Of a stretch of 64,000 nucleotides of DNA, positions 12,214 through 49,939 are shown piece by piece. Where the stretch lies: the NCBI RefSeq assembly GCF_024204665.1, contig NZ_CP100355.1, positions 3,391,451 through 3,455,450 on the forward strand, read 5' to 3'. Under the pieces are notes generated by a model. That model made no database searches. It had not been told where the DNA came from and saw nothing but the letters and a program-made list of their open reading frames with translations. Numbering within the stretch: the stretch's first letter is position 1; each line of letters opens with the position of its first letter. Made by a program: the position numbers and the translations under genes. This stretch comes from Natronosalvus rutilus. Lineage in GTDB: Archaea; Halobacteriota; Halobacteria; Halobacteriales; Natrialbaceae.

Positions 12214-13293
12214 ATGGCCTTCCGACCACTTCCTATGGGCTCTCAGCCACGCGACGTTCTCGTTTCACTTCTCGAGACGCCTTCCCCGTCGGGGTACGAA
12301 ACCCGCGGCCAGCGCGTCTGGATCGACTACGTCTCGCAGTTCGCGGACGAGGTCCGTACCGACGCCTACGGTAACGCGATCGCCGTCCACGAAGGCGACT
12401 CCAACGGCCCCGAAATCGCCCTGACGGGCCACGCCGACGAGATCGGTTTCATCGTGCGCTCGATCGACGACGACGGCTTCCTCAACGTCGGCCGCATCGG
12501 CGGCAGCGATCCCTCCGTCGCCCGCGGCCAGCACGTGACGGTACACGCCGAGGACGGCCCCGTCGAGGGCGTGATCGGTCAGACCGCGATCCACCTCCGA
12601 GAGGACGACGACGAGCCCGAAATTTCGGACCTCTGGATCGACATCGGCGCCGAGGACGAAGAGGAAGCGGCCGAGCGCGTCGCCGTCGGCGACCCGATTA
12701 CCTTCTCCTCGAGCGTTGCCTGGCTCTCCGAGACCCGACTGGCCGCCCGCGGCATCGACAACCGCGTCGGCACCTGGATCGCCGCCGAAGCGTTCCGCCG
12801 GGCCGTCGAGAGCGGAACCGACGCCACGGTTTACGCCGTCTCGACCGTCCAGGAGGAGGTGGGCACGAAAGGGGCGAAGATGGTCGGTTTCGACCTCGAG
12901 CCAGACGCCGTGGTCGTCGTCGATGTCGGTCACGCAGTCGACTACCCCTCTGCACCCAGCGAGAAGACGAGCCAGATGGAACTGGGCGGCGGACCGGCAC
13001 TCGGTCGCGGCAGCACCAACCATCCAGTGCTCTTCGACGCCCTCCAAACGGTGGCCGACGACGAGGAAATCGACGTCCAGGTCGAAGCTCTCGGCCTCGG
13101 CACCGGCACGGACGCCGACAGTTTCTTCACCGCTGCGGGGGCGATTCCCTCCCAGGTCGTGAGCGTCCCTAACCGATACATGCACACCCCGGTGGAAGTG
13201 GTCGATACCGAGGATCTCGAGGACATCGCTGATCTGCTGGGATCGTTCGCGAGTTCGGCCCACGAGTTCACGCCGTTTTCGGTGAATCTCTGA
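12214..13293 (+). CDS. M42-family metallopeptidase (tetrahedral aminopeptidase/deblocking type)
   Basis: A 359-residue di-metal aminopeptidase of family M42. Metal ligands and catalytic residues appear in the family order: GHADEIG (His73, Asp75), ARGIDNRVG, QEEVGTKGA (catalytic Glu pair), VVDVGHA, and the C-terminal NRYMHTPVE His. A PA-like beta domain with GVIGQTAIHL splits the catalytic core as usual. These enzymes trim short peptides from the proteasome or Lon. An ATG at 12235 would give 352 residues and is nearly as likely. A second M42 paralogue lies at 18348-19412. Confidence 0.93.
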   Translation: MAFRPLPMGSQPRDVLVSLLETPSPSGYETRGQRVWIDYVSQFADEVRTDAYGNAIAVHEGDSNGPEIALTGHADEIGFIVRSIDDDGFLNVGRIGGSDPSVARGQHVTVHAEDGPVEGVIGQTAIHLREDDDEPEISDLWIDIGAEDEEEAAERVAVGDPITFSSSVAWLSETRLAARGIDNRVGTWIAAEAFRRAVESGTDATVYAVSTVQEEVGTKGAKMVGFDLEPDAVVVVDVGHAVDYPSAPSEKTSQMELGGGPALGRGSTNHPVLFDALQTVADDEEIDVQVEALGLGTGTDADSFFTAAGAIPSQVVSVPNRYMHTPVEVVDTEDLEDIADLLGSFASSAHEFTPFSVNL

Positions 13294-13364: not shown

Positions 13365-13372
13365 TATATAAG
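13365..13372 (+). promoter_or_regulatory. TATA box of the RNA candidate
   Basis: TATATAAG is the best match to an archaeal TATA box in the 405-bp gap. Its centre is about 27 bp upstream of 13395, where the long-range stem of the RNA candidate begins. It is over 320 bp upstream of gatB, so it is unlikely to serve only that gene. Confidence 0.55.
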
Positions 13373-13393
13373 CAGTGCCGTCGCCTAGATCGA

Positions 13394-13470
13394 GTGCGTA
13401 CCTTTAGTCCCCGACCGAGTAGACCCACTTCGGGTGCGATGACCGTTCGGCGAACCCGGGTACGCGACAG
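13394..13470 (+). ncRNA. Candidate H/ACA-type small guide RNA
   Basis: A lower stem of 7 bp pairs 13396-13402 (GCGTACC) with 13459-13465 (GGTACGC). Inside is an asymmetric internal loop (13403-13414 and 13451-13458), an upper stem (13415-13420 with 13445-13450, two G-U pairs) and an apical ACCC/GGGT hairpin (13423-13435). An ACA trinucleotide sits at 13467-13469, one base after the stem. It is separated from the base of the upper stem by 16 nt, within the 14-16 nt spacing known for H/ACA pockets. A TATA box lies about 27 bp upstream. I could not confirm a kink-turn or a target site, so this is an inference from base pairing seen by eye. Confidence 0.4.
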
Positions 13471-13698
13471 TCGTTCGACGGCTCGCGCCGTCCCAAAAGT
13501 CGCGATTCGTCGGAATCGTGCACACGCCCGGCACGAGGGTTAGCCAGCAGACGCGGCACGCCGCCACGGGATGATGCTGGACGTTAGTGTTCCGGGTGAT
13601 ATTCGGATTCGTGAGCCGCTCTTCCGTCTCGAGAAGTCCTCATTAGACACCAATCTGGCTCCGTTATCCTTTAGCGCCCGCGGGTCAAATCGCCTCCA

Positions 13699-15183
13699 AT
13701 GACCGCGCAAACCGTCCAGCAGGGGGACCTCGTCACCGTCATCGGCCTCGAGGTGCACGTCCAGCTAGAGACGAACACCAAGATCTTCTGTGGCTGTTCC
13801 ACCGACCCCGCCGACGGCCCCAACGAACACGTCTGCCCCGTTTGCCTGGGCCTCCCCGGCGCCCTGCCCGTCCTCAACGAGGCCGCCGTCGAGGCCGCCG
13901 TCAAGATCGGCAAGGCCATCGACGCCGATATCCCCGAGGAGACGCGCTTTCACCGGAAGAACTACTACTACCCCGACCTCCCGAAGAACTTTCAAATTAC
14001 GCAATACGACGAACCGATCTGCCAGGACGGTACGCTCGAGGTCGCCGTCGAGGGCGAACGCCGGGAAATCACGATCGAACGTGCCCACCTCGAGGAGGAC
14101 CCCGGGAGCCTCCAGCACGTCGGCGGCAGCATCGACACCGCGGACTACACGCTCGTCGACTACAACCGCGCCGGCACGCCGCTCATGGAGATCGTCACGG
14201 CCCCCGACTTCCGCAGCCCCCAGGAGGTTCGGGCCTTCCTCACGGAACTCGAGGAGGTCCTCGAGTACCTGGGCGTCTTCGACGCCGAGCGCGACGGCAG
14301 CCTGCGGATCGACGCCAACCTCTCGATCGTCGACGGCGAGGAGGTCGACGGCGACGGCTCGATCGGTCTCGACGCGCTCGAGGCGGCCAACCGGACCGAG
14401 GTGAAGAACATCTCGAGTCACAAGGGCGCCGAGAAGGCACTGGCCTACGAGGAGACCCGCCAGAAGAACGCGGTTCGACGCGGTCGCGAAGTCGAACAGG
14501 AGACCCGCCACTGGGACGAGAGCCGCGGGATCACGGTCTCGATGCGCTCGAAGGAAGCCGAGAAGGACTACCGGTACTTTCGCGAGGCCGACCTCCCGCC
14601 GCTGCGGGTCTCTCACTGGAAGGACGAGATTATGATTCCGGAGCTCCCCAAGGCCCGTCGCGAGCGCTTCGGCGAGGAGTACGGCCTGGGCGAGGAAGCG
14701 GCCTCGAAGCTCACGTCCACGAAGCAGGTCGCGGACTTCTACGAGGACGTCGCCAGCGCGTTCGACCCCGACCTGGCGGCGACCTGGGTCGCCGACGAAC
14801 TTCTCGGGGAACTCAATTACCGTGACATGGACGTCACCGACCTCGAGGGACGGCTCGACGAGGTTGCCCGGCTGGTCGAACTCGTCGCGACCGACGAGAT
14901 TACGGCGAAGAACGCGAAAGAGGTCGTCCTCCGCGGGATGCTCGACGATGGTGACGATCCGGACGCGATCGTCGAGCGCGAAGGGCTGGGCAAGACCGGC
15001 GAAGACGAGGTGCAGACCGCCGTCGTCGAGGCTATCGAGGAGAATCCGGACGCCGTCGCCGACTACGAGGCCGGCGAGGGCGGTGCGATCAACTTCCTCG
15101 TCGGGCAGGTCATGCAAAAGACCGGCGGAAGCGCCGACCCAGGCGACGTCAACGGACTCCTGCGGGCAGAACTCGAGGAGTGA
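13699..15183 (+). CDS. gatB: Asp-tRNA(Asn)/Glu-tRNA(Gln) amidotransferase subunit B
   Basis: A 494-residue GatB, the tRNA-binding kinase subunit of the amidotransferase that converts Asp-tRNA(Asn) and Glu-tRNA(Gln) to the amide forms. The N-terminus IGLEVHVQLET, the zinc-binding region FCGCS...CPVC (about 29-50), and HRKNYYYPDLPKNFQI are signature blocks. The C-terminal Yqey-like tRNA-recruiting domain spans about 340-490. Length is normal for the family. No gatA or gatC is adjacent, so the partners are encoded elsewhere. Confidence 0.95.
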   Translation: MTAQTVQQGDLVTVIGLEVHVQLETNTKIFCGCSTDPADGPNEHVCPVCLGLPGALPVLNEAAVEAAVKIGKAIDADIPEETRFHRKNYYYPDLPKNFQITQYDEPICQDGTLEVAVEGERREITIERAHLEEDPGSLQHVGGSIDTADYTLVDYNRAGTPLMEIVTAPDFRSPQEVRAFLTELEEVLEYLGVFDAERDGSLRIDANLSIVDGEEVDGDGSIGLDALEAANRTEVKNISSHKGAEKALAYEETRQKNAVRRGREVEQETRHWDESRGITVSMRSKEAEKDYRYFREADLPPLRVSHWKDEIMIPELPKARRERFGEEYGLGEEAASKLTSTKQVADFYEDVASAFDPDLAATWVADELLGELNYRDMDVTDLEGRLDEVARLVELVATDEITAKNAKEVVLRGMLDDGDDPDAIVEREGLGKTGEDEVQTAVVEAIEENPDAVADYEAGEGGAINFLVGQVMQKTGGSADPGDVNGLLRAELEE

Positions 15184-47047: not shown

Positions 47048-49939
47048 TCACTCCTCGAGCAACCGCTTTAGCCGGTCGAGTTCGGTGAGTGCTTCCACGG
47101 GGGTCAGGTGGGCCAGGTCGAGCGCCCGGAGTTCGCTCGCGACGTCGCTCGGGTCGTCGCCGCCGTCTGAACTCACGGGCGACGTGGAAGCTGGCGCGAC
47201 AGGGCTCGAAGCGGAATCTGAGGGGGCGTCGATCCGATCACCGGAACCACCGTTGCTGTCGCCGTCAACCAGCGCGCGAGCGCGCTCGACGACCGGGTCG
47301 GGAACGCCCGCCGCCGTCGCCACCTCGACGCCGTACGAGCCAGCGGCCGCGCCGGGAGCAATCTCGTGGTCGAAGGTGACGTCGCCGCTCTCCTGGGTCG
47401 TCTCGAAGTGGCGGGTGAACGCCCCCTCGAGTTCGTCGGCCAGTTCGGTCAGGGGGTGGTGGTGGGTCGCGAAGAGCGTCAGTGACCCGATTTCGTCGTG
47501 GAGGTGTTCGGTGATCGCGCGGGCGATGGTGAGGCCGTCACTCGTCGAGGTGCCACGGCCGACCTCGTCGAGGAGGACGAGCGACCGCTCGTCGGCCTCC
47601 CGGAGTATTGTCGCGAGTTCGTCCATCTCGACCATGAACGTCGAGCGCCCGCCCGCGATGTCGTCGCTGGCGCCGACTCGGGTGAAGATTCGCTCGGCCG
47701 GTGTGAGCGTCGCGCCTCGAGCGGGCACGAAGCTCCCTACCTGCGCCAGCAGGACGATCTGGGCGACCTGTCGCATGTACGTCGACTTTCCGGACATGTT
47801 GGGCCCTGTGATGATCGCCAGCCGATCCTCGGCGTCGAAGCGTGCGTCGTTCGGGACGAACGATTCCTGGGTTCGTTCGACGACGGGGTGACGGCCGGCC
47901 TCGATTTCGATGCGGGAGGCGTTGCCGTCGCTGTCGCTGTCGCCGCCGTCATCGTCGTCACCGCTCCCACGCTCGAGCACCTCGGGCCGACAGTAATCGT
48001 GCTCCGCAGCGACGGTCGCCAGGGAACACAGCGCGTCGAGTGCCCCGAGGGCGTCGGCGAGCGTCTGGACGCGCTCGACTTCCGCACCGACGTCGCGACG
48101 GACCCGACAGAACAGGTCGTACTCGCGCTGGTCGGCCCGGCTCTCCGCGCCAACGATCTCGTCCTCGCGTTCCTTCAACTCGGGCGTGACGAAGCGCTCG
48201 GAGCGCTTGAGCGTCTGACGGCGCTGGTAGTCCGCCGGGACGGCCTCGAGGTTCGGGTTCGTCACCTCGATGTAGTAGCCGTGGACCGAATTGTATCCCA
48301 CCTTGAGCGAGTCGACGCCCGTCCGCTCGCGCTCGCGGTCCTCGAGCGCGTCGATCCACTGCTTGCCGTCCCTGGCCGTCTCCCGGAGGGTATCGAGGCG
48401 CTCGTCGTAGCCGTCGGCGACGATACCGCCCTCGGTGACCTCGTGGGGCGGGTCGGTGACGATCGCCCGGTCGATCAGCCGACGGACGTCCTCGAGCGGG
48501 TCGAGCGCCTCGCGGATTCGGTTCAGTCGACCGGCCTCGGCGTCCGCCAGCGCCTCCCGGATTTCGGGGACCACTGCGAGAGTGTCACGCAACGAGCGCA
48601 GGTCGCGCGCGTTGGCTCGCTCCCTGGAGATGCGCCCGATGAGTCGCTCGAGGTCGTACACGCCCGTCAGCGCGTCTTGGATCGCCTCTCGGGTACGGGG
48701 GTCTCGAGAGAGTTCCTCGACGGCGTCGAGGCGGCCGTCGATGCGCTCGGTCTCGAGCAGCGGTCGCCGGAGCCAGTCCCTGAGTTTTCGGCCGCCGAGG
48801 GCGCTCGCCGTCTCGTCGAGCACGCCGACGAGGGTGGCCTCTTTGCGACCGTGGACGCCTCGCGGTTCGAAGAGTTCGAGGCTTCGGACGGCGACGGCGT
48901 CGAGTAGCAGGTACTCACGGGGGTCGTACCGACGGAGTCGTGAGAGGTACTCGAGGCGTGGGCGGTCTGGTTCGTCGCTTTCGTCTTCGTCTCCGTCTCT
49001 ACCTCCGTCTACGTTTTCGTCTTCCTGGCGCTCGTGCTCGATCGATTCACCGTCGTCCGTCTCGCTGTCGTCCGTCGCCTCGTGACCGCGACCGTCCTCG
49101 TCCACAGCCCCCTCGACGCCCCCACGAACGTACTCCGCGTAGGCGAGCACGGCGCCGCAGGCGCGAACCTCCGCGTCGTTCGCGACGAGCGCCTCCGCTC
49201 GAGCGACGTACGTCTCGAGGAGGTCCGTGGCGCGTTCGAGGGCGAACGCCCCGGGGTCGAACGGCGTGACCATACACCGCTCCGGGAGGATATCGTCGGG
49301 AGCGTTCGGGCCAAGGACGGCCTCGGCGGGCGCGAAGCGGCTGATCTCGTCGGCGATTCGCTCGGGGCTGCTGGCGCTGGTCGTCAGGAAGTCGCCGGTC
49401 GAGACGTCCAGGAGGGCGAGGGCGACGTCTGCGTCCGGGTTCGTGCTCGCGTTCGTGTCCGGGCTGGTGGTCGTGTCTGCGTTCGCGCCCTCGGAACCGT
49501 CGCCTACGGCCACCGCCGCCACGAAGTTGTTGTCGTCGCTCGAGAGCAGTTCGTCCTCGGTGAGCGTCCCGGGCGTAATCACCCGCGTCACCGCCCGTTC
49601 GACGACGCCCGCCGACTCACCCGGTTCCTCGACCTGGTCGGCGATGGCGACCCGGTAGCCGGCCTCTAGCAGGTCCTCGACGTAGGTCGCGACGTTGTCG
49701 ACGGGAATCCCGGTCATGGGATACTCGCCGGTCGAGTCCTCGCGGCTGGTGAGCGTGAGCTCGAGCAACCGCGCGGTCGTCTCGGCAGCGCCGCCGAAGG
49801 TCTCGTAGAAGTCGCCGACCTGGAAGAGGACGATGGCGTCGTCGTACCGGGCACAGAGGTCGTGGTACTGGGCCATCATCGGCGTGAGTTCCGCGCGCCG
49901 CTCGGACATCGATTCGGGGGGACCAAGCGCGGAGTCCAT
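47048..49939 (-). CDS. mutS: DNA mismatch-repair protein MutS
   Basis: A 963-residue MutS1-type protein. The mismatch-contact motif [11 protein letters not shown] is near residue 40 (Phe-x-Glu form GDFYE), and the ATPase Walker A is GPNMSGKST near 710, with [11 protein letters not shown] as Walker B and ATHHHPL later. It is long for MutS because of two acidic low-complexity insertions: about 283-325 in the core/lever part and about 655-672 before the ATPase. Start at MDSALG. No mutL lies within the window on the upstream side. Confidence 0.93.

Follow-up and report, generated by a model that had tools for sequence, protein, structure and literature searches.

Between an M42-family peptidase gene that ends at position 13293 and gatB, which starts at 13699, both on the + strand, the window (the whole stretch of 64,000 nucleotides of Natronosalvus rutilus DNA analysed here) contains an intergenic segment with the appearance of an RNA gene. 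The earlier note had read positions 13394-13470 as one candidate H/ACA guide hairpin of 77 nt upstream of gatB. The locus raises the question of whether a guide RNA is encoded there and, if so, how far its gene extends, which uridines it would serve and to which known RNA it corresponds.

Anatomy of the locus

In the alignment of the genus, two conserved blocks (13393-13469 and 13524-13602) flank a spacer that is variable in sequence and length. From this arrangement we infer a two-hairpin H/ACA gene that would span about 13395-13602/13604 of the + strand, composed of a first hairpin (HP1), the spacer and a second hairpin (HP2). Its features are the following.

13365-13371, +: TATA box (TATATAA); in 78 loci A+T is 85-100% at -25 to -22, counted from 13393
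13386-13387, +: conserved TA dinucleotide; A+T 94% and 86% in 78 loci
13395-13604, +: probable span of the guide RNA with both H/ACA hairpins and the spacer between them; 5' end from the TATA spacing, 3' end from conservation that stops just past the HP2 box
13393-13469, +: HP1, H/ACA hairpin 1, predicted guide for 23S U2616 (E. coli U2586), from covariation, target scan and model matches in 193/194 Halobacteria genomes
13396-13402, +: HP1 lower stem, 5' strand, pairing with 13459-13465; 99.7% paired in 56 sequences, changes on both sides in 4/7 pairs
13403-13410, +: 5' guide strand of the HP1 pocket; G-T-C-C unchanged in all 56 sequences, GUC (13407-13409) pairing with GAC past the target U-A
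13412-13450, +: HP1 upper stem and loop with a putative kink-turn (CGAG .. GCGAUGA); no change in GAG or GCGATGA among 56 sequences, upper stem covarying
13453-13457, +: HP1 3' guide AACCC, pairing with GGGUU 5' of U2616; invariant in 56 sequences, 14 nt before ACA
13467-13469, +: HP1 box ACA; ACA in 70/78 and AUA in 8/78 sequences
13470-13523, +: unconserved spacer, including small hairpins 13477-13492 and 13501-13520; congeners already differ in its sequence and length
13524-13602, +: HP2, H/ACA hairpin 2, predicted guide for 23S U1951 and U1953 (E. coli 1915 and 1917), from covariation, target scan and model matches in 192/194 Halobacteria genomes
13532-13543, +: 5' guide strand of the HP2 pocket, CACGAGGGUUAG; no variation among 56 sequences, can pair with the helix 69 region over 8 bp or 6 bp
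13581-13591, +: 3' guide strand of the HP2 pocket, ACGUUAGUGUU; no variation in GTTAGTGT among 56 sequences
13599-13601, +: HP2 box AUA (ANA variant of ACA); relatives have ACA (direct or one position away), AUA or, in rare cases, CCA

HP1 has the parts that had been described for it: the 7-bp lower stem (13396-13402/13459-13465), the internal pocket and the upper stem, which the alignment places at 13412-13415/13447-13450, and the 16-nt spacing from the upper stem to ACA (13451-13466). The ACA follows the lower stem after a single nucleotide (G13466). The 77-nt extent did not hold, since it covers only the 5' half of the gene and overlooks HP2. The two small hairpins just downstream (13477-13492 and 13501-13520), which had been offered as further hairpins, lie in the spacer and were rejected as guide hairpins because their conservation fails even among congeners; the true second hairpin is 13524-13602. 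The distance from HP1 to the HP2 pattern varies widely between genomes, from 22 to 155 nt in 77 loci, and gaps between the hairpins reach about 260 nt in compared genomes, e.g. G216 and G229. A second function of the variable spacer, or of alternative HP1 pairings, in addition to the guiding of the three known pseudouridines, such as a lineage-specific extra guide or a regulatory role, is improbable.

A TATA box had been placed about 27 bp upstream of the 5' stem, and a TATA-like box is indeed located at 13365-13371, about 25-30 nt before the stem. In the alignment of 78 loci an A+T-rich TTAA core lies 22-25 nt, and a TA pair 6-7 nt, before 13393. Haloarchaeal promoters usually carry the TATA box near -27 and a WW element near -10, and the TA at 13386-13387 is presumably this 'WW' -10 element. 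Applied to both positions, the usual spacing predicts a start at about 13395-13397, at the foot of HP1.

Both hairpins contain a conserved motif in the upper part, GAG/GCGAUGA in HP1 and its counterpart, a kink-turn-like GA/GATGA (GA/GAUGA), in HP2. These motifs are taken, from motif knowledge and by their sequence signature alone, to be kink-turns of the L7Ae type. The AUA box of HP2 is non-consensus, most relatives having ACA; across loci, ACA (direct or shifted by one) is dominant and AUA occurs in ten, including this species. In three Natronosalvus congeners (L007, L008 and L014, that is, genomes G001, G004 and G003) HP2 is followed by CCA rather than by ACA or AUA. Such a box may still work, because the PUA domain of Cbf5 is known to bind the CCA of tRNA (PMC7991803).

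Covariation and distribution in Halobacteria

The conservation of the stems in relatives, on which the earlier note had made its reading depend, was analysed in 56 haloarchaeal sequences, across which the HP1 stems are kept and covary. Pairs are maintained in 96.5% of the HP1 stem cells, double changes occur in 9 of its 18 pairs, and double-change cells amount to 76 versus 17.4 in shuffles. In HP2, 96.9% of the stem cells remain paired and 36 cells show double changes versus 12.1 in shuffles; double changes occur in 4 HP2 pairs, in itself an ordinary count that 92 of 500 shuffles reach. When the proposed pairings were slid as a control, paired cells dropped to 18-48%. The pocket strands, GUCC and GAACCC in HP1 and CACGAGGGUUAG and GUUAGUGU in HP2, are invariant or nearly so, HP2 being the more strongly conserved block.

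The folding energy of 13388-13546 is unexceptional for its base composition (z = -0.73), as would be expected of a chance hairpin in GC-rich intergenic DNA. In such DNA energy alone cannot separate HP1 from chance, whereas conservation and compensatory changes can: the compensatory changes, the invariant pockets and the class-wide conservation seen in the alignments refute a chance origin, the probability of which is negligible.

DNA resembling the locus was found in all 8 genomes of the genus and in 118 of the 121 family genomes. An exact pattern derived from HP2 yielded 80 loci in Natrialbaceae and other haloarchaea, among them Haloplanus, Halolamina, Natronomonas, Halovenus, Salinibaculum and Salinarchaeum, and HP1 was recognised upstream of the pattern in 77 of the 80; the Haloplanus and Halolamina relatives align with this RNA. 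Covariance models matched HP1 (model R1) in 193 and HP2 (model R2) in 192 of 194 Halobacteria genomes, with 65/65 genera represented. Each hairpin is nearly always in single copy per genome, and HP1 lies 5' of HP2 on the same strand in the genomes whose two matches were compared. One genome of the family carries two complete copies of the RNA gene (G109:C1:1714656-1714853 and 3469976-3470173). In a fragmented assembly of 120 contigs (G082) neither hairpin was found by the covariance models, reflecting either an assembly gap or a true loss. Outside the order, 14 genomes of the phylum gave weak matches to the HP2 model (E 1e-7 to 1e-3), which is consistent with the published link to stem III of Pyrococcus Pf7.

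This distribution bears on the possibility that the gatB mRNA carries the structure as a leader or as a cis-regulatory element. The start codon of gatB, whose GatB identity was confirmed, lies about 100 nt downstream of the RNA on the same strand, which speaks for such an element. However, gatB was detected near the guide-RNA gene in only 2 of the 80 haloarchaeal loci, both from Natronosalvus, yet the RNA is conserved class-wide; moreover, the RNA has its own TATA box and pockets that complement rRNA. Since no gatB neighbour of the gene was found in other genera, a gatB leader was rejected and is considered very improbable. The position upstream of gatB is thus correct for this genome but not a general trait, and the adjacency is a local accident.

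Targets in ribosomal RNA

The 776 uridines of the genome's own 23S and 16S rRNA were all scored against the pocket strands defined by covariation, the 23S rRNA gene (L042) having been located in the same assembly with RF02540. An E. coli-type helix 69 pattern has no match in this genome, because the archaeal sequence is GUAACUAUGAC. The target U2586 had been anticipated from the literature before the scan, although the scan itself covered every uridine. Bipartite complementarity around an unpaired U-N was found, the best rRNA sites being known pseudouridine positions and the HP1 5' duplex being weak.

For HP1, the best of the 776 uridines is 23S U2616 (E. coli U2586), in the context GAGCUGGGUU-UA-GACCG. 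For HP2, the best is 23S U1951, and U1953 is second within 23S rRNA, in the context GGGGGUAAC-U-A-U-GACCCUC; these correspond to E. coli 1915 and 1917. With 16S rRNA included, U784 of 16S falls between U1951 and U1953, and U1271 of 16S ties with U1953 as third. Shuffled pockets placed a known site on top in 0/300 cases for HP1 and 3/300 for HP2, and never two known sites. The 3' guide base is 14 nt from the box for HP1 and for HP2/U1953, and 16 nt for HP2/U1951, distances that fit the published archaeal H/ACA rule of 14-16 nt (PMC3608112).

Pairing of HP1 with U2616 is the weakest of the three. Its score of 25 is followed by sites with 24, and the 5' guide forms only about 3 contiguous bp (GUC/GAC), so that U2616 is assigned largely on the strength of the invariant AACCC and of published work. 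HP1 might guide another rRNA, tRNA or mRNA site instead of or besides U2616, as the small margin over other rRNA sites would allow and as has been proposed for some H/ACA(-like) motifs (PMC4652768). Against this, the 3' guide AACCC is invariant class-wide and fits U2616 at the correct distance of 14 nt, and U2616 is the equivalent of a mapped pseudouridine, H. marismortui 2621 (PMC2584109). Another target of HP1 is therefore improbable, and U2616 is retained. The target that had been deduced from the pocket in the earlier note, GUUCG-UN-UCGGGG, has at least 3 mismatches anywhere in 23S or 16S rRNA; it is wrong because the bases used belong to the covariation-supported upper stem, which would need to melt.

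Assignment of the locus to the H/ACA class is upheld on several counts: the stems covary, the kink-turn and pocket strands are invariant or nearly so, the box is at the proper distance, promoter elements precede the gene, the RNA is conserved across the class and the pockets match target sites. The architecture of lower stem, pocket and upper stem, the ANA box, the kink-turn signature, the complementarity and the core-protein genes of the class are all present.

Relation to the H. volcanii guide RNA and proposed function

The H. volcanii RNA that contains HP1 and HP2 is presumably the one called sR-h45, a name taken from the earlier note. In Haloarcula marismortui, 23S rRNA carries pseudouridines at 1956, 1958 and 2621, equivalent to E. 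coli 1915, 1917 and 2586, and Grosjean 2008 put forward a pair of hairpins conserved in haloarchaea with a long spacer between them, of which HP1 would serve 2621 and HP2, by means of alternative structures, both 1956 and 1958 (PMC2584109). The hairpins were later named Hvo1/Hvo2, and the same source counts H. volcanii among the experimentally validated cases, citing Blaby 2011 (PMC4652768). A single H. volcanii transcript with both hairpins was detected by RNA-Seq (PMC6490895). The N. rutilus RNA shares with it the two H/ACA hairpins in one transcript with a long spacer between them, HP1 directed to the equivalent of H. marismortui 2621, and HP2 directed to 1956 and 1958 by alternative pairings. 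It differs in species, in genomic neighbourhood and in the AUA box of HP2.

The locus was filed as an orthologue of the published H. volcanii RNA because it agrees with that RNA in hairpin order, in spacing and in each of the three targets. The kinship with sR-h45 thus goes beyond the similarity that had been suggested earlier, the anatomy and the three targets being those of sR-h45 as described in the literature. With a probability of about 0.96, this is the orthologue of the H. volcanii HP1/HP2 RNA (sR-h45) and would assemble with the core proteins to have U2616, U1951 and U1953 isomerised. Orthology appears from the architecture, the targets and the class-wide, near-single copy, the RNA being likened to sR-h45 by the published description. 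Hence, the guide RNA is of an already known kind and not a new one.

Genes for Cbf5, L7Ae and Nop10 are present in the genome with matches above the cut-off, and a Gar1-like match falls below the Pfam cut-off (E = 1.8e-4). The Cbf5 open reading frame is intact, with 307 amino acids, and a TAG inside the Cbf5 match appears to be the gene's own stop codon. While anatomy, conservation, covariation, complementarity and core-protein genes were observed in this analysis, transcription, RNP assembly and catalysis in N. rutilus are what the orthologue suggests. By analogy, the RNA at 13395-13602 would assemble with Cbf5, Nop10, Gar1 and L7Ae. HP1 would pair with GGGUU-U-A-GAC in the peptidyl-transferase centre, allowing Cbf5 to isomerise 23S U2616, and HP2 would pair with the helix 69 loop in two registers 2 nt apart, so that U1951 and U1953 could both be isomerised.

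Related systems are Pyrococcus Pf7/Pab40 (HgcG, RF00064), compared here through its stems II and III, and Archaeoglobus Af4.3. According to Grosjean 2008, HP2 is the homologue of Pf7 stem III and HP1 likely that of stem II (PMC2584109). Pf7 differs in having three hairpins, and in Thermococcales the equivalents of HP1 and HP2 lie next to each other with no long spacer between them; the HgcG model (RF00064) fails to recognise the N. rutilus RNA. The eukaryotic snoRNAs U19 and snR191 have the two-hairpin H-ACA architecture of eukaryotes, without the archaeal kink-turn. They resemble HP2 in that they guide the equivalents of the helix 69 pseudouridines 1915 and 1917 (PMC2584109).

One two-hairpin RNA, present in practically all Halobacteria, can account for the three mapped haloarchaeal 23S pseudouridines. 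Its biological significance is expected rather than surprising, and the new facts are modest: nearly all Halobacteria carry it, almost always in one copy, Rfam 15 lacks it, and in Natronosalvus it happens to be located before gatB. The Rfam search that the earlier note had advised returned no family for this RNA: Rfam 15 had no family match across the 64-kb window, the surroundings of the locus yielded nothing even at E values up to 10, and there was no family above the gathering threshold at five related haloarchaeal loci (L055, L067, L083, L097 and L121). Without a family in Rfam 15 the RNA is likely to be overlooked by Rfam-based annotation, and the alignments and models of this analysis could seed one. 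Elsewhere in the window, ARAGORN called a 90-nt tRNA-Ala(ggc) at 48806-48895, where Rfam has no tRNA; the sequence looks protein-coding and the call is probably a false positive.
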